Assembly (NCBI GenBank): GCA_013420905.1 | Contig: JAAXNY010000009.1 | Location: 3,348,001 to 3,412,000, forward strand | Source: Collybia mongolica | Taxonomy: Eukaryota > Basidiomycota > Agaricomycetes > Agaricales > Clitocybaceae | Reading direction: 5' to 3' | DNA: 64,000 bases | Shown here: in pieces, positions 9,873 to 48,963 of the stretch | Layout of the letters: every line of letters begins with the position of its first letter | Position numbering within the stretch: the stretch's first letter is position 1 | Notes under the pieces: generated by a model | The model's input: only the letters and a program-made list of their open reading frames with translations | What the model was told of the DNA's origin: nothing | Database searches by the model: none | Program-made: the position numbers and the translations under genes

Positions 9873-10492
9873 GATGCCCAGAACAGTCACAGGCTTTGAT
9901 GTGCAACAATGGTGAGCAAAGGACATCCTTGTGGCACAAGAGAATATGGGGGTTGCTGTATGTCTTTGGGGCTGAGGGTTAGGGGCTTGTTATGTGTGTG
10001 AAGGTATAACTCTTGGATTTCCTTTGCCTCACCACACTTTGACCAACATCAGGTTAGTGTGGTGCAACATAGGGTTGCCCTTACAAGTTTGAATGAAAAT
10101 CTGGATGTGATGTAATAAGTGTGTACCATACATATTAACTTGCAGTCAAACTGTGGCTACAGTGTGTATCTAGTGCACATACACTGATCTCACTTATGTT
10201 GTTCTATTAATACACTCATGGAGGAAATTAAGAACACACAGAAAATCATTGAAGATACATTCAGGGTTTTACACACATCTGCAGTTCCACCCAGTGCTGT
10301 TCAGTATCCTATCCCTCTAAGAGTTGTTCAAAGGCCAGTTTTGTCTGATTCCAATAAAGTTAATGATACTTCCAGATAGAGAGAGATTATTAAACAGACC
10401 TAGCCTGTTTGCCAATACAATTGCTTCCAGTCTTTTTTGAAGGACATCTTTGAAATGGTTCTTGGACTTTCTGAATACAAAGATGAAGTAGA
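9873..10492. other. AT-rich intergenic stretch
   Basis: No gene seen. It lies just downstream (minus-strand sense) of the putative C-terminal exons of the G-domain gene and probably includes its 3' end. Confidence 0.4.
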
Positions 10493-11122
10493 TCAATTTG
10501 CAGGTATATTAAGATGCAAGACAAACCTTTTCTGAACCACATCCTTGGCATGTCTCCAAATTGACTTTTCAAGTTCAGCCACAGAGTCCGAATACTCAGT
10601 GATACCCTCTGCAACTTGTCCAGTGATAGCAATGCCCTGTGATGATAATTGATATTGGGTAACTGCAATTGGGACTGCTGGAGCAGAGACTGATTTGCTA
10701 TGTCTCCAAATGAAGTACAGGTGTTCTGCAATGACTGTAAGGGCTGTACAACACTGCTTTAGCATGACAACGAGGCTGGGATAGAAACTCACCAGTGCCT
10801 ATATGAATGACTTGAGCCTGAATGGAGGCAGATGCATGAGGATCTGCCTTAACAATGTCAAGGAAATGTTAAAATGTGAGAAGGATTAAAAAAAAAAGAT
10901 ATCCCACTATTTGCATTATAGCAAAGGCTATGGATCCAATTTCTTCAGTCTAAAAGGAAGAGAATTGAGCAGCTATTTTGCATATAACCAAGCATATCAA
11001 GAAAGAGGAAACCTCTGAAAACATAATGTACTTCCCAATAAATGCAAACAACCAGAGTTGGTTCATGTGACAAGGAGTTAGATCAATAGCTTGAGAAATC
11101 CATGATAGACCAAAAGAAATTT
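10493..11122 (-). CDS. Probable C-terminal exons of the G-domain gene
   Basis: After the intron-like array, coding sequence seems to resume on the same strand. Proposed exons are 11013-11122, 10908-10949 and 10493-10798 (stop at 10493), joined in phase 0. The predicted peptide is helical and hydrophobic, with segments such as WISQAIDLTPCHMNQLWLFAF, TEEIGSIAFAIMQI, LTVIAEHLYFIWRH and YSDSVAELEKSIWRHAKDVV. From memory, similar hydrophobic C-terminal helices follow the G domain in this Agaricomycete family. The first proposed exon needs one extra nucleotide of phase relative to the array, so I could not connect the two halves in frame. It may be a splice I missed or damage. Confidence 0.45.
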
Positions 11123-11213
11123 CTAGTTATTATTCAACAATACAACATCTCATATAAGAAACAGCCACTCACATCTTGGTAGACCTAGATATAGGCAAAA
11201 AAATTCCCACTTA

Positions 11214-13709
11214 CAGTCTGGAGAGAACATTGAGGATTGTGAGGCAGATTATGGATGCAGATGAGAAATAGCTTACAAACTAGAAATGATTTTTGAAATA
11301 ATAAAAATAATAAAATTGGTTCTTTGTGCTGGCATAAAACAGTGGCTTACAAACTGCAGAAGATTTTGAGGTTATGTAACAAATTATGCATTAGATGGTT
11401 ACACACATTCTAGAAGACAATTCCAGGTTATGAGATAGTATTTCATGCAGGAAAATAAAGCCATTTACAAGCTGGAATAAACCATCAAAATTATAAGGCA
11501 GGATCCAAGTATGACTGAGAAAGCATGCTCACATGCTGCAAAGAAAGACCATGGCTATTAGACAATATCTGGGTGCAGCCAAGAAACAGCTGCTGACTTT
11601 CTGGAGAAATATTCAAGAAGCTTAAATAGTCCCTGAATGCACAAAGGAACAGCTACTTACATTCTGCAGAGAAGTTGAAGAATGTGATAGAATCTGGAAA
11701 CAACAAAGAAGAAACACTCACATACTACAAAGAAGTTTAAGGTCATATCGTAGGATCTAGTTGCAATCAAGAAACAGCTGCTCACATACTGCAAAGAAGT
11801 TCAAGATCATGAGATGGGATTTGAATCCAGGATGAAAATTAGCTACTTACTTTCTGAAGAAAAAATAAGACTATAAGACAGAAACTGAATTCAGAAAGAA
11901 TAGCCATTCACTTTCTGGAGAATAGTTCAAAATTATGATATAGGGTCTAGTTTCAAAGCAGAATAGCCACTCACAAGCTAAAAGACAATGAAGGCTATAA
12001 GACAGAATATTGATGCAAAACAAAAAAGACTACTTACAAACTATGGTAGGGAGGATTGGGATTATAAGACAGAATTAGGATGCAGCCATGAAACAACCAC
12101 TTACTTTCTGGAAATATTATCAAGGTTAATGAGATAGTATTGGATACAGTCAACAACCAGCTACTCACATCCTAAAGGAAAATACAAAACTATAAATAAG
12201 AATCTAGATGCAGCTAAAAAATAGATACTTACTTCCTAAAAAAAACGGTCAATGCTACAAGATAGATTTTAGATGAAGCCAAAAAAAACAGCTGCTTACT
12301 TGCTGAGGAAAAGTTCAGAAATATGTAACAAACTCAGGATGTGGCCAAAAAATAGCTACTCACTTTCTGAAGAAAAATCCAAGGGTATGAGACAGAATCT
12401 GTTTGCAGAACAGAATTTCAGTCACTTACAAGCTAAAGAAGATATTAAGGCCATGAGATCAGCTCTGGCTATAATCAAAAAATGGCTACCTACTTCCTAA
12501 AGAAAAAGTCAGGTCTATAAGATAAGTTTTAGATGCAGCCAAGAAATAATCACTTACATGCTGGAGGGAAATTCAAGGCAGTAAAGAGGATGTGGATATG
12601 GCCAGCAAAGAGCTACTTACTGTCTGAAACAAAAATGAAGGCAGTGAGGCAGATGGATGCAGCAAGAAAATGGCCACTCACTCTCTGAAAAATTGAATGT
12701 TATGAAATGAGATCTGGATAATACCAAGAAACATCTACTTACTCTCTAAAGGGGAGAATCAATGTTGGTGAGTTAGGATCTGGTATTAGTCTAGAAACAG
12801 CCACCCACTTGCTAAAGTAAGATCCAAGGCAATGAGTTAGAGTCTAGATACAGAATAGAAAGGCCATTTACAAGCTGGAGGAAAAGTCAAGGCTATGAGA
12901 CAAGGCCTGGATGCAAGAAAAAATTAACTACTCACAACCTAGATAAAGTAAAGGCTATAAAACAGTTTCAGACAAAATCTAGGTGCAGACTCTCACTGTC
13001 TGCAGAGTAATTCAAGGCTATGAAACAGGATCCAAATACAAAAACAACCACTCACTTCCTGAAAAATAATTAAAGTAATGATACAAAACCTGGATGTAGA
13101 TCAAACATAGCTGCTTACAAGCTACAGGTAAATACATGGCCATAGCCCTTAAGATAGGATCTAGAAGAAGCCAAAAAACAATTTCTTACTTTCTGAAGAT
13201 AAAATGAAGGCCATGAGCCAAAATTTGGACATTATATTTGGATTGCCACTCACAGGCTAAAAATGATCAAAGGTACAAGGCAGGATTAGATGCAGCCAAG
13301 AAAAAATTACTTACTATCTGGAGAAAGATATTAAAACCATGGAATAGGTAGGAACTGGATGTAATCAAAAATTGACACCCACTTCCTGGAGGAAGAATTC
13401 AAGACCATAGAATAGAATTTGGATGCAGTCAAACAATGGTCACTTACTTCCTGGAGAACAACCAATGCCATCAGACAAGATTCAGATGTAGCTGAGAAAC
13501 AGTCACTTACTTCCTGAAAGACAATCAAGGTTACTAGACAGAATTTTAATATAACACAAAAACAGTTACTCACATGCTGGAAGATAATTCAAGGCAATGA
13601 TAAGTTGAGTGAAGTACATGCCAATTATGAATGGCCCATTCTCACAATCTAATCATATGTCACATTAATATATTTTCCAAAGTTGCAACGCAAGTAAAAC
13701 AAGTCTTAC
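11214..13709 (-). repeat. Array of ~39 intron-like units separated by 3-nt exon-like cores
   Basis: On the minus strand this stretch is a tandem array of diverged units 61-74 nt apart (mean about 64). Each unit starts with a 5' splice-site-like GTRAGT/GTGAGT, runs through a loosely conserved body (gctgcatcyagatyctgtctcatagccttga, in part) and a pyrimidine tract, and ends YAG. Between each YAG and the next GT there are exactly 3 nt. I counted 39 such cores, from 13646-13648 (att) to 11215-11217 (act), for example 13574-13576 cat, 13511-13513 gaa, 12997-12999 aca, 12105-12107 aaa, 11351-11353 ttt. Sixteen different triplets occur, none is a stop codon, and the third base is always A or T. Intron size equals that of ordinary host introns. 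It directly follows the 3' coding exon of the G-domain gene. Confidence 0.85.
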
Positions 13710-14949
13710 TGTCCAGCATGGAAAATATTCCATTATAGCCCCAAACATGCCTAGTACCCATATCCTTCTGTCTTCTGGTTTTGATGTCTCATAGTCTAGT
13801 ATTTTTCTTATCACTTTAAGTGTAATTTTCAAGTACATAGAGGAAAAGCTATTGCTCACTTTGTTGCATATCTCACTGATATCTCCAGACTAACTTGCTG
13901 AGTTGAGACAAATAATGCCTGCAGAGTGTCACTGTTAAGAACAGAAGCTGTACACTCTACCAGTTCCTTGCAGCTCGTCTCAGGCCTCTCCATCTCTGGT
14001 TATCAAGTGAGATTATGGTCCGAAGACTCAAAAACATGGCACCCAACCTTGCAGATATACATGCCCTCGTGGTGAAAATTTTTGCTTTGCCAAATCCAGG
14101 TGAGTATTCCACAAATTCTCCCTAGCATACTGAGGTGCCCTCTTCACTGCATCTCGATAACTCAAGTTTTCCTCTGTCTCCAATATTTCAATCGCTGTTA
14201 GCTCCAGGGCCTCACATTTAGTGAACACCGCGATAACAGGAACTGTAGCGATTATTGATATTTTACTTATACCCCTTGATTGTTTCTTACCTTTTCCTGT
14301 CCCGAATTTCGAGAAAAATTGAACCTCGGCATTTGTAATTGGTCGAGAGTCGTCCATCGGAATACAGTACCTTTTACCATAATCAGATTTGGCGACACGT
14401 TTGTGGTAACAATTGGCCATACCAAACGACATGAACTTGATTTTCCAGCTTCTTTTCATTCGAGCGCTCAGACAGAAATTTTTTGACCTTTTGTAACTCG
14501 TCAACCCCACCAGCTTCAAAACCGCGTGAATCGTGAAAGATAAAACCGGGATTGCTCCGAAAGATCATCTCATCCGTGATATCATGGATTCCACGCTACG
14601 TTGGCGTCAGTGATGACCTTGTCACTCTGTGAATTCGCAACTCACTCCAGGGGTGGGTTCAATCTTCGAAGGGTCGACCTTCATGAAACAATTCACAAGT
14701 TATTCAACCTGAAAGCCTCGATCACACAAACGAAAGTACCTTGTGCCCGGCGCTGTCGTAGATATCAGGATCATCGGTTGTGTTGCAGATCTTCTTGAGA
14801 ATAGTCGTTTTTCCCGCGTTGGCTCTGCCAACGATAAGGATCCGGAATCTTCCCGCCTTCCTCGCAAGTTCAGCCCGCTTCACTTCCTTTGCGTATGTAT
14901 CGATTGTGGTAGTCGGCTCGTGGGCGCTTGCCGTTTGGATTTCAGACAT
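13710..14949 (-). CDS. G-domain (P-loop GTPase-like) protein, N-terminal 295 codons
   Basis: Exons (minus): 14740-14949, 14646-14678, 14423-14595, 14291-14370, 14048-14242, 13860-13995 and, less surely, 13710-13767. The ATG at 14949 precedes a nucleotide-binding fold: P-loop GRANAGKTT (residues 41-49), a switch/G3-like FHDSRGFEAGG (DxxG), WYCIPMDDSRPIT, and G4-like PVIAVFTKCEALE. Then come the helical C-terminal signatures CKELVECTASVL and LFVSTQQVSLEISVRYA. This is a widely expanded Agaricomycete family of unknown role; GTP binding is inferred from motifs. The last exon ends TGGACA followed by GTAAGA, the first donor of the 39-unit array. The 92-nt intron before that exon is longer than usual and uncertain. 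Confidence 0.8.
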
Positions 14950-45624: not shown

Positions 45625-48600
45625 TCAGGCACCAATATGGATAAAGTTAGTCCACCGATCCAATGAGATACCCTGCCTTCTCAATGCCCTAGTTGCAATG
45701 TTAAGAGCCTCTGCTGCATTTTTCAAATTCACAGGGCCTGCATCACAAAACATGTGTTTGTAAAATATGTCTGCAATAATTGGGCCATCATCATCTACCA
45801 TTTCCCACAATGTTCCAATAACACTTCTAAATCCACAAGCCTTTAAAGCTGCTGCCAGGTGGATAGACTCATCTGGGGTCCCAAGTATACTTCCTGCTGC
45901 ACTATGATAGGCAGATAGAAATGCAAACTCTGCATTTGGGAGCTCAGCCTTTGCCAGGTCAAGAACAGTCAGGTGTTCACCATTACCAAGTTGGAACCAG
46001 GAATCAAAAGGTTGCTTTGCAAGGTGACCATGACAAGCAAAGTGAACCCATGCATGAGACTGCAAACCTTCCAAAACAGTCTGTTTGTGGGCATCACTTC
46101 CTGAGCAAAGATCAACCTCTATGCCAAGATTTTTTATGATCTTAGCCTCTTCAAACACATGGGGAATTGTATCATCAGGTTGACTGACTAGAAATAAATT
46201 TAATGTGGTTTGAGGTTTGGGAATAATGGATCTGGCTCTCATCAATGAGGTTAAAGTAGGAGTGTATGAAACTGTGTACAGGTCAGGCAGACACTTATGC
46301 CCCTTTTTATATGGGCCTGCAGCATGGAGAGGAAGTGCACAGAGATAGGATGTGGGACATAACCAAATGCGTGATTTATGTGGCACCTTCAGCTCAGATA
46401 GCTGTTTCAAGATTGGCTGAGCAATTGCATCCCACAAATGGTGTAAAACTTGGAAAATATCTTTGGAAGACTTGGTACCAGCAGTAGCTTCCATAAGTTG
46501 TTTGATAAGCTGTTTCAGTATTTGAGGTGATGCATCATGAAGGGTAACAAGCACTGGGGCAGTGTGAGAAGCAAGGATGATAGCATCTGACTGGAAGTCA
46601 ATAATGTTCACCATAGTAACTGGGCCTTCTGCAGCTGCATTCTGCAATATTTTGTATGGAGTAGCCCTTAAATAATCTGAAAAACCATCAAGTTTCCTGA
46701 TCTCTCCCAGTAGAGCTGTCCATTTCTCAGAAAGGGTATGTTGATGTGTAATATTCACATCATCTGATACAGCATTATGCTCAAGCTGGAGGGCAACAGC
46801 TTGGAACTCATTTGCAAGTTGAGAGTTTCTCTCTGAAATTTGTTTGAATGATTGTCTATATCCTTGCATTTTAGCCCATAGTATAGACCTTCCCTGCTCC
46901 AATAGTTGTACAGCCATTTCCAATTTATTGGCACTGATGGCACATGAAGCAGCATTTAAACACAGCTGGGCTGAGCTCTCTATGAGCTTCTGCTGGGATG
47001 TGACTGAAGGTAACAAAGCAAGATGTTGCTGCTGCAAGTCCAGTGCAAGAGAGTAGGCATTAATTGCAGAAGTGAATTTATACTTGTGTGCTGTACTAGC
47101 CCATTCTTTTGCAGCTTTAAATCTATCAGGCAGACTTGATGTTACGTGCTGTGCTGCTGACATAAGAAGTCCACAGGCATCATCAATGTGAGAGCAATTG
47201 TTACAGTATTCCCAGTCAGACTTATGTACAATCATTAAAAGTGATGCTTGACCAAACATCACTGAAGAACAATAAGGGTGATATGGAGGCAGGCATAATA
47301 GAGCAACTTCATAGAAATTGATGGCCTTCTCCAGATCAATCCTAGCTCCAAACTTCTTATACCTTGTGGATAGGACACCTGCAATGTAGGCAAGAGACCT
47401 GGGCCTCTCTGGGTGACCAGGTGGACACAGTTGCAATGCCTCATCATGATATATTATTGCCTGATCTAGATCCATTCTATTTTCAAGCTGCATATATCTG
47501 GTAGATAATGAAAGTGCAAGATCATTTAGAGATACAGGCCTATGTGGGTAGCCAAGTGGATGCAAGATCAATGCCTGTTCTTGATATTCAATGGCTGTCT
47601 CCAGATCCCCCATTTCCCCAAGCCTGTAGTGTCTGATATATAGAGCAAGTGCAAGGTTATTCATAGATTTAGATCTTTCAGGATGACCAGGTAGAAACAA
47701 ATCCAGTGCCTGTTTCTGGTAGGTTATGGCATTTTCCAGATCCCCTATTTCTCCAAGGTGTAAATATCTGGCATACAAAACATTTGCCAGATTATGCAAA
47801 GAGCTGGACCTGATAGGATGACCAAATGGGCGTAAATTCAATGCCTGCTCATGATAGCTTATGGACATTTCCAAATCCTCAATTTCTCCAAGTTGCTCAT
47901 ACCTGCTTCTCAAAGTAATTGCAAGGTTATTCAAGGACATAGCTCTGTCAGGGTGGCCAGCTGGATGTAAGTCCAAAGTCTGTTCATGATAGTTTAAAGC
48001 CTTCTTTAGGTCATTCATTTCTCCCAGTTGCTGATACCTAGCATACAAAGCAAGTGCAAGGTTGTTCAAAGAGCTGGACCTGAGAGTGTGGCCAGATTGC
48101 CTTAGGCTCAATGCCTGTTCATGGCAGGTTATGGCCTTTTCCAGGTCTTCCATTTTGCCCATTTGCTGATACCTTGTATACAAAGAAAGTGCAATTTTAT
48201 TCAAAGACATAGATCTGTCAGGGTGACCAAGTGGATATAGATCCAGTGCCTGCTCATGATACTTTATGGCCTTCTCCAGGTCAACAATCTCTCCCAGCTG
48301 TTGATACCTTGTGCATAAAACAAGTGCAAGATTGTTCAGACACATTGGCCTGTCAAAATCACCCAGTGAGTGGAAGTCCAAATTCTGCTCTAGATAGCCT
48401 ATAGCCTTCTCCAAATCATCCAGTTCTCCAAGTTGCTCATACTTGCTCCTCAGAGTTAGTGCAAGATTATTCAGAGACATAAATGTATCAGAGCCAGGCA
48501 GGGATAGATTCAATGCCTCTTCATGAAAGGCTATGGCCCTTTCTAGATCCCCCATTTCTCCAAGCTGCTGATACCTGGTGTACAAAGCAATTCCAAGGTT

Positions 48601-48963
48601 ATTCAGACACATAGACCTCTCAGGGTGGCCAGATGGGAACAAGCCCATTACACGTTCATGACAGATTATGGCTTCCTCCAAATCCTTCACATAGCCAAGC
48701 TGTTCAAACCTAGAAACCAAACCAGCAGCAAGATTGATCAGCAATAGCCCAAGATCATCATTATCTACTGTATCTTGTTCCAAGGCGTTTTTATAGTGCA
48801 TTATAGCACTGTCAAGGTCATCTGGTTGAAAATCCTCCTGGTACCTTTCATGGTAGGCAAACCCAAGAGTGAGAAGCTGTTTCATGGTTTGAGTCCCTTC
48901 GAGAATGGCTATAACAAAGAGGTTTTCTTGTTGTTCAATTTCGGTCAGTTGTTTGGTTTCCAT
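45625..48963 (-). CDS. TPR-CHAT protein with Cys-to-Tyr change in the protease dyad, 1112 aa
   Basis: An intronless gene. Residues about 60-535 form 11 tandem TPR-like repeats of about 42 residues (pattern DLEKAI.YHEQALDL..GHPDRS.SLNNLA..L..RYQQLGE). A linker helix region follows, then a C-terminal CHAT domain (about 770-1112; HFACHGH, AFLSAY, DESIHLAAALKACGFRSVIGTLW, RWTNFIHIG). CHAT domains are caspase-like proteases with a His/Cys dyad. The His motif is present, but the Cys of the usual SAC is Tyr1019 (TAT at 45907-45909), so proteolysis is predicted to be lost. TPR-CHAT proteins occur in bacterial and fungal defence or death-related systems; a role here is inference. Codons are AT-rich at third positions, unlike VPS11 or ADE12. 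Confidence 0.9.
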   Translation of the reverse strand: METKQLTEIEQQENLFVIAILEGTQTMKQLLTLGFAYHERYQEDFQPDDLDSAIMHYKNALEQDTVDNDDLGLLLINLAAGLVSRFEQLGYVKDLEEAIICHERVMGLFPSGHPERSMCLNNLGIALYTRYQQLGEMGDLERAIAFHEEALNLSLPGSDTFMSLNNLALTLRSKYEQLGELDDLEKAIGYLEQNLDFHSLGDFDRPMCLNNLALVLCTRYQQLGEIVDLEKAIKYHEQALDLYPLGHPDRSMSLNKIALSLYTRYQQMGKMEDLEKAITCHEQALSLRQSGHTLRSSSLNNLALALYARYQQLGEMNDLKKALNYHEQTLDLHPAGHPDRAMSLNNLAITLRSRYEQLGEIEDLEMSISYHEQALNLRPFGHPIRSSSLHNLANVLYARYLHLGEIGDLENAITYQKQALDLFLPGHPERSKSMNNLALALYIRHYRLGEMGDLETAIEYQEQALILHPLGYPHRPVSLNDLALSLSTRYMQLENRMDLDQAIIYHDEALQLCPPGHPERPRSLAYIAGVLSTRYKKFGARIDLEKAINFYEVALLCLPPYHPYCSSVMFGQASLLMIVHKSDWEYCNNCSHIDDACGLLMSAAQHVTSSLPDRFKAAKEWASTAHKYKFTSAINAYSLALDLQQQHLALLPSVTSQQKLIESSAQLCLNAASCAISANKLEMAVQLLEQGRSILWAKMQGYRQSFKQISERNSQLANEFQAVALQLEHNAVSDDVNITHQHTLSEKWTALLGEIRKLDGFSDYLRATPYKILQNAAAEGPVTMVNIIDFQSDAIILASHTAPVLVTLHDASPQILKQLIKQLMEATAGTKSSKDIFQVLHHLWDAIAQPILKQLSELKVPHKSRIWLCPTSYLCALPLHAAGPYKKGHKCLPDLYTVSYTPTLTSLMRARSIIPKPQTTLNLFLVSQPDDTIPHVFEEAKIIKNLGIEVDLCSGSDAHKQTVLEGLQSHAWVHFACHGHLAKQPFDSWFQLGNGEHLTVLDLAKAELPNAEFAFLSAYHSAAGSILGTPDESIHLAAALKACGFRSVIGTLWEMVDDDGPIIADIFYKHMFCDAGPVNLKNAAEALNIATRALRRQGISLDRWTNFIHIGA

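Follow-up and report, generated by a model that had tools for sequence, protein, structure and literature searches.

In a 64,000-nucleotide stretch of a Collybia mongolica contig (the window), we have found an array of 39 consecutive single-codon exons, which very probably represents a run of genuine exons in a gene for a fungal G-domain GTPase. The array lies on the minus strand at 11214..13709, is read in the sequence as successive YAG-3 nt-GT junctions, and would encode IHEEEIPKLETVLQRRTHELKQEDKFLKKYYNKHLNFFT. The array itself, its presence through a gene family, the constraint on its codons and the duplication of its blocks are evident at the level of the DNA. From these we infer the splicing of each unit, the order of splicing and any variation in the number of residues.

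The initial annotation had counted 39 consecutive junctions of this form, and our recount in the window agreed. It had given their spacing as 61-74 nt, and we measured 56-74 nt, so that the lower limit was wrong. The first triplet, ATT, is located at 13648-13646 and the last, ACT, at 11217-11215. Each triplet consists of the three bases that follow an AG end on the minus strand. These ends are located at 13649, 13577, 13514, 13451, 13386, 13318, 13257, 13193, 13122 and 13059 for triplets 1-10; at 13000, 12939, 12875, 12812, 12746, 12685, 12624, 12561, 12497 and 12433 for triplets 11-20; at 12367, 12303, 12236, 12172, 12108, 12041, 11978, 11915, 11854 and 11789 for triplets 21-30; and at 11725, 11664, 11601, 11536, 11472, 11410, 11354, 11280 and 11218 for triplets 31-39. 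As had been claimed, the triplets are of 16 kinds and include no stop, the third base being T in 20 and A in 19. All exons of the array are 3 nt long and in phase 0, and each is thus a multiple of three. AG and GT were both search requirements, and their presence in every unit is therefore built in. Under a strict consensus, the longest chain comprised 32 sites; when this stretch was shuffled 500 times by dinucleotides, no chain exceeded 2.

The array lies inside a GTPase gene that extends from 14949 to 10317 on the minus strand, and the splice sites of this gene were placed by hand. The G-domain part is formed by seven exons (14949-13710), identified by translation. Exon 1 (14740..14949) carries the ATG and the P-loop GRANAGKTT, and Pfam MMR_HSR1 is found in the closest homologue, P0001. 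It is followed by exon 2 (14646..14678), exon 3 with FHDSRGFEAGG (14423..14595), exon 4 (14291..14370), exon 5 with TKCEA (14048..14242), exon 6 with LFVSTQQ (13860..13995) and exon 7 (13710..13806), which ends in phase 0 with MEYFPCWT, corresponding to WFPH of the relatives. After the array, a last, longer intron can probably be placed at 10950..11214, as read from the sequence, and a possibly decayed unit lies within it near 11183, past the array end. The C-terminal domain is formed by four exons (10949-10317), namely TEEIGSIAFAIMQI at 10908..10949 (translation and alignment), ADPHASASIQAQVIHIGT at 10793..10847 (translation), EHLYFIWRHSKSV... at 10527..10725 (translation and alignment) and the last exon with ...KDVLQKRLEAIVLANRLG... 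at 10317..10470 (translation), whose stop TAG is at 10319-10317. An apparent frameshift between exons 6 and 7 was rejected, because the acceptor GATAAG gives an intact frame that agrees with relative P0003; the gene is therefore not broken there. Of its 10 hand-placed acceptors outside the array triplets, four end in AAG instead of CAG or TAG.

With the 39 triplets included, the gene has an open frame from ATG to stop. Against a profile of 13 relatives, the predicted protein aligned over 415 columns (E 3e-87); its 39-residue array peptide sits at the point where these relatives differ in length. The nearest database proteins come from Collybia nuda, the best of which is 82% identical across 69% of the query. 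When five members (P0001, P0003, P0023, P0117 and P0120) were scanned against Pfam, MMR_HSR1 was the best family in all five, above the cut-off in three, and no NACHT or ANK match was obtained in them at E 0.01. A PDB sequence search with P0001 returned a weak match to Arl3 alone. The predicted structure of P0120 had a mean pLDDT of 62, with most of the insert below 50, and a comparison of P0120 with viral contigs gave no match.

On the other hand, the array could be regarded as a non-coding minisatellite within one long intron, whose splice-like junctions arose by chance and whose 2.5 kb would be removed whole. This reading, which we consider highly improbable, agrees with the tandem duplication of the arrays and with the fact that omitting the whole array also keeps the frame of the gene. 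Against it stands the length of the core. Across the window and the further genome DNA scanned, core lengths of 0-2 and 4-12 produced no chain of at least four, and core length 3 produced 23 such chains with 298 triplets. It is also opposed by the integrity of the run, in that the introns of the window array are alike at 62% on average and yet the spacing shows no gap of the size of a lost unit within the 39 units.

Arrays of this kind occur through a family. Searching the 46-Mb assembly with protein, array DNA and C-terminal domain queries, we located about 27 array loci, including two near-identical copies (C2 and C18). Twenty-one were read in DNA, and the remaining six were recognised solely through DNA similarity (C13:2226, 2343 and 2359 kb; C16:543-546 and 929-931 kb; C6:386-387 kb). 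Among the matches listed, a G-domain or C-terminal match lies within about 3 kb of 26 of the 27, and none lies near the array at C16:929-931 kb. Of 14 ten-kb regions taken around other G-domain matches, six contain a chain of at least four and eight contain none. A looser parse gave 20 chains with 392 units, excluding the C18 copy; small chains of low score, near C9:3289.9 and 3290.5 kb, were left out of the counts. Twelve paralogue loci have 19-33 units each, and the other parsed loci have fewer (C18 copy again excluded). Array introns measured 50-84 nt with a median of 60 (n=336, first parse), and in an alignment of 59 units those from different arrays form a single family. The copies C2:60500-70499 and C18:70500-80499 carry GTPase genes 99.4% alike over 4.6 kb with the same 28 array codons and a piece in inverted order after the array; the pair is too similar for testing selection. 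On C6, two arrays about 3 kb apart face in opposite directions (386.3-387.4 kb, plus strand; 390.2-390.7 kb, minus strand), the former having a C-terminal match and, among the matches listed, no G-domain match on the same strand.

The triplets behave as codons. Since their positions carried no weight in the parser, their codon statistics are not built in. No stop was found in 392 units, where 23.8 would be expected from base composition by position; this also argues against the minisatellite. TAA or TAG accounted for 0 of 44 TAN triplets versus 86 of 183 for the other NAA and NAG (p 7e-11, related units being treated as independent in this and the other triplet tests). Individually, TAA occurred 0 times against 75 for other NAA, and TGA 0 times against 19 for other NGA. 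The freedom from codon constraint that characterizes a non-coding minisatellite is thus not seen in these triplets.

A further indication comes from the first codons of the arrays. In eight paralogues whose arrays begin with xWxLE, picked after the motif had been seen, codons 2, 4 and 5 (W, L, E) specify the same amino acid in 8/8, and the introns before them are alike at 68, 77 and 76%. In the same eight, codons 6-8 have amino-acid identities of 14, 14 and 4%, with introns alike at 73, 81 and 72%. Retention of head codons despite intron divergence is again difficult to reconcile with a minisatellite. The best match of an intron was at the same position in another paralogue in 46 of 56 cases for intron 2 and 52 of 56 for intron 3, and in 19, 5, 3, 12 and 0 of 56 for introns 4 to 8. 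Accordingly, the head appears to be inherited by position and the tail not. Among the 19 parsed array loci (C18 excluded), xWxLE is full in eight, partial in three (C5:947 kb, C13:2217 kb and C13:2307 kb) and neither in eight; the array in the window is without it, full or partial.

Fourteen relative proteins derive from short contigs of about 1.1-2.6 kb. Their frames run uninterrupted over the intron sites of the family, so that these contigs look like cDNA, and we take this to suggest that they are. Thirteen of the 14 reach WFP, and in seven of these 13 (P0020, P0023, P0117, P0120, P0121, P0122 and P0126) an insert directly follows WFPH or its variant, at the same place as the array, which speaks against removal of the whole array as one intron. 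The inserts, whose ends were set by hand at the next conserved motif, comprise 21-49 residues, except in P0020, where 91 residues run to the protein end; six of the seven proteins continue into the C-terminal domain. In P0045, scarcely any insert separates WFP from the C-terminal domain, and this protein agrees with the minisatellite reading. Five other short-contig proteins (P0022, P0039, P0042, P0053 and P0082) stop 6-33 residues past WFP; these may be messages that retain the first array intron. Together with P0045, they could be unspliced or skipped messages, other gene ends, or relatives without an array. Genome-derived models such as P0077 and P0089 lack an insert. Several Collybia nuda models (P0002, P0003, P0005 and P0010) end shortly past YFP with residues resembling a translated intron.

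The inserts vary more than the domains beside them. P0020 and P0023 have the same residue at 195 of 243 positions of the G domain and at 16 of 43 of the insert, and P0120 and P0121 at 61 of 76 and 16 of 37, respectively. Ten residues (D, E, Y, H, L, R, N, K, W and F) constitute 83% of array residues and 73% of the inserts (P0020 excluded), against 51% of the G-domain parts.

The units also carry features related to splicing. GTGAGT or GTAAGT donors were found in 310 of 357 array units versus two of nine ordinary introns of the window gene. A triplet of the form NAG would offer a second acceptor, and NAG triplets are the rarer ones (11 of 183, against 33 of 165 for other NNG; p 9e-5). If retained in the message, 272 of 370 array introns would introduce a stop in frame, and only 21 are both open and a multiple of three. 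The initial annotation had proposed that the splicing of each unit has been under selection; the donor consensus, the scarcity of NAG, the lack of stops and the kept head codons fit selection on the splice sites and also on the codon.

How the units change can be judged from pairs of units. Where the 60-base flanks were identical, the triplet was common to 28 of 29 pairs; therefore, whole units and blocks duplicate. These block duplicates, together with the open frame through 39 codons, support the earlier claim that a unit of intron plus codon was amplified in tandem within the gene. With one flank difference, the same triplet was found in eight of 21 pairs. With 2-3 differences, it was shared by 6% of 78 pairs, where 87% would be expected if triplets changed like flanks, and with 4-5 differences by 19% of 130, where 79% would be expected; the pairs are non-independent, in that a single array contributed 48 pairs to the group of 78 and 82 to that of 130. 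The three best collinear runs between paralogues (10, 14 and 12 units) had flanks 90-92% alike and triplet bases 33-47% alike.

Introns that resemble one another beside triplets that do not would also arise by insertion of introners, if near-identical intron copies had been placed between successive codons of an exon that was formerly continuous. Introners are spread through many genes, unlike the array intron copies, which among the matches listed are confined to the array loci of one gene family: a search with a two-intron query, which scores the best candidates alone, gave 165 matches, and those listed were all in known array loci and none elsewhere. Moreover, every codon would need a strike in phase 0, the identical blocks indicate duplication of units with the triplet included, and array length varies between paralogues. 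We thus consider this origin quite improbable.

Accepting that the triplets are coding, either the codons have been pushed to change or the introns have been kept alike by conversion. On the latter account, tail change would not be driven by selection; the contrast of similar introns with dissimilar triplets would then follow from homogenised introns together with short tracts of conversion, and old codons would merely be preserved. The low identity of tail codons between paralogues at positions 6-8 speaks against mere preservation. We regard this account as possible but somewhat doubtful.

The arrays are nearly devoid of CpG. Their introns contain 15 in 20,759 bases (observed/expected 0.015), and the array in the window, which is A+T-rich, has a ratio of 0.04; both the base composition and the CpG depletion would also suit a minisatellite. 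CpG occurs inside 13 of 357 array triplets. The near absence of CpG from the arrays and its presence in some triplets suggest that methylated CpG has decayed and that some arginine codons were retained. The third base is C in none of the 392 triplets; at that position a C would create a CpG together with the G of the donor. Elsewhere in the window, a gene for a TPR-CHAT protein (45625-48963, minus strand) contains internal DNA repeats of 135 bp and has a CpG observed/expected ratio of 0.05, about the level of the window array. An open frame at 592-1611 on the minus strand encodes a transposase with DDE_3 and HTH_Tnp_Tc3_2 domains, which we take to be Tc/mariner-like.

Returning to genuine single-codon exons, we propose that the spliceosome would take out about 40 similar introns of roughly 60 nt. 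Because each acceptor and the next donor are 3 nt apart, removal would be simplest in succession from the 5' end, with one codon contributed by each step. The 39 codons would form a hypervariable segment joining the GTPase domain and the C-terminal domain. Units would multiply via tandem block duplication, and any number could be gained, lost or skipped without a break in frame. The head codons of the xWxLE paralogues would be under selection and the remaining codons would turn over fast, as expected for a variable binding surface, and the segment may possibly, by analogy with other systems, serve in recognition.

The kind of array is already known. The initial annotation had known of no description of such an array; this needs correction, since codon-sized microexons of 3 bp, tens per gene, have been reported in the nank (NACHT-ANK) NLR genes of Tuber melanosporum, an ascomycete. 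According to the passages of later papers that describe this work (Iotti et al. 2012, Fungal Biol 116:261, cited in PMC4986451, PMC3689799 and PMC10197012), the nank microexons are alternatively spliced. As far as those descriptions go, the two cases are alike in having tens of 3-bp exons per gene (39 in the window gene and 19-33 in 12 paralogue loci), an expanded fungal family and a proposed diversification of the protein. They differ in that the present host is a basidiomycete and the family one of G-domain GTPases, and that alternative splicing is reported for nank, whereas our array is known from DNA and its splicing is a deduction. The nank proteins have NACHT and ankyrin domains, unlike the five scanned GTPase members with their lack of NACHT or ankyrin matches; the Collybia mongolica genome itself gave 22 NACHT matches.

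Other systems share single features. Micro-exon genes of schistosomes, in the passages available of PMC10526429, encode variable secreted proteins from many tiny exons, mostly of 15 bp (6-81, or 3-81 according to the abstract) and mostly multiples of three, between introns of 0.1-5 kb, whereas the array exons are all one codon and the introns about 60 nt. P450 genes of Phanerochaete chrysosporium, also a basidiomycete, have very small exons beside small introns, with microexons of 2-10 amino acids and the shortest of 6 bp; unlike the arrays here, these are dispersed, and the available passages of the source describe no one-codon arrays (PMC1184071). Families of near-identical introns are likewise seen in fungal introner-like elements (PMC4457414). 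Recursive splicing and stwintrons resemble the array in their successive reactions at an abutting acceptor and donor, but they leave no exon or place an intron within an intron, whereas three bases would remain here per step; no chain with the zero-length AG-GT core of a recursive site was present in the DNA scanned. In the literature searched with the terms used, we found no description of such arrays in a GTPase family or in a basidiomycete. As far as this literature shows, what is new relative to the Tuber case is the host phylum and protein family, along with the extent of the arrays and the evidence drawn from codons.

In summary, if our reading is true, as many as 39 one-codon exons in a row would be spliced and retained over long evolution, models of how splice sites pair would face a demanding test, and a protein would be variable one residue at a time without frameshifts. 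Such variation would then be known from two fungal phyla and two protein families, which suggests that runs of one-codon exons arose more than once. At the array site, automatic gene models of this large GTPase family of mushrooms may also be incorrect, as the Collybia nuda models illustrate. We tentatively propose that the family diversifies at the level of the codon. The near-identical introns may act as recombination spacers and splice cassettes, by which single codons are shuffled, duplicated, deleted or skipped in frame, and a conserved head may be followed by an evolving, perhaps alternatively spliced, recognition tail.
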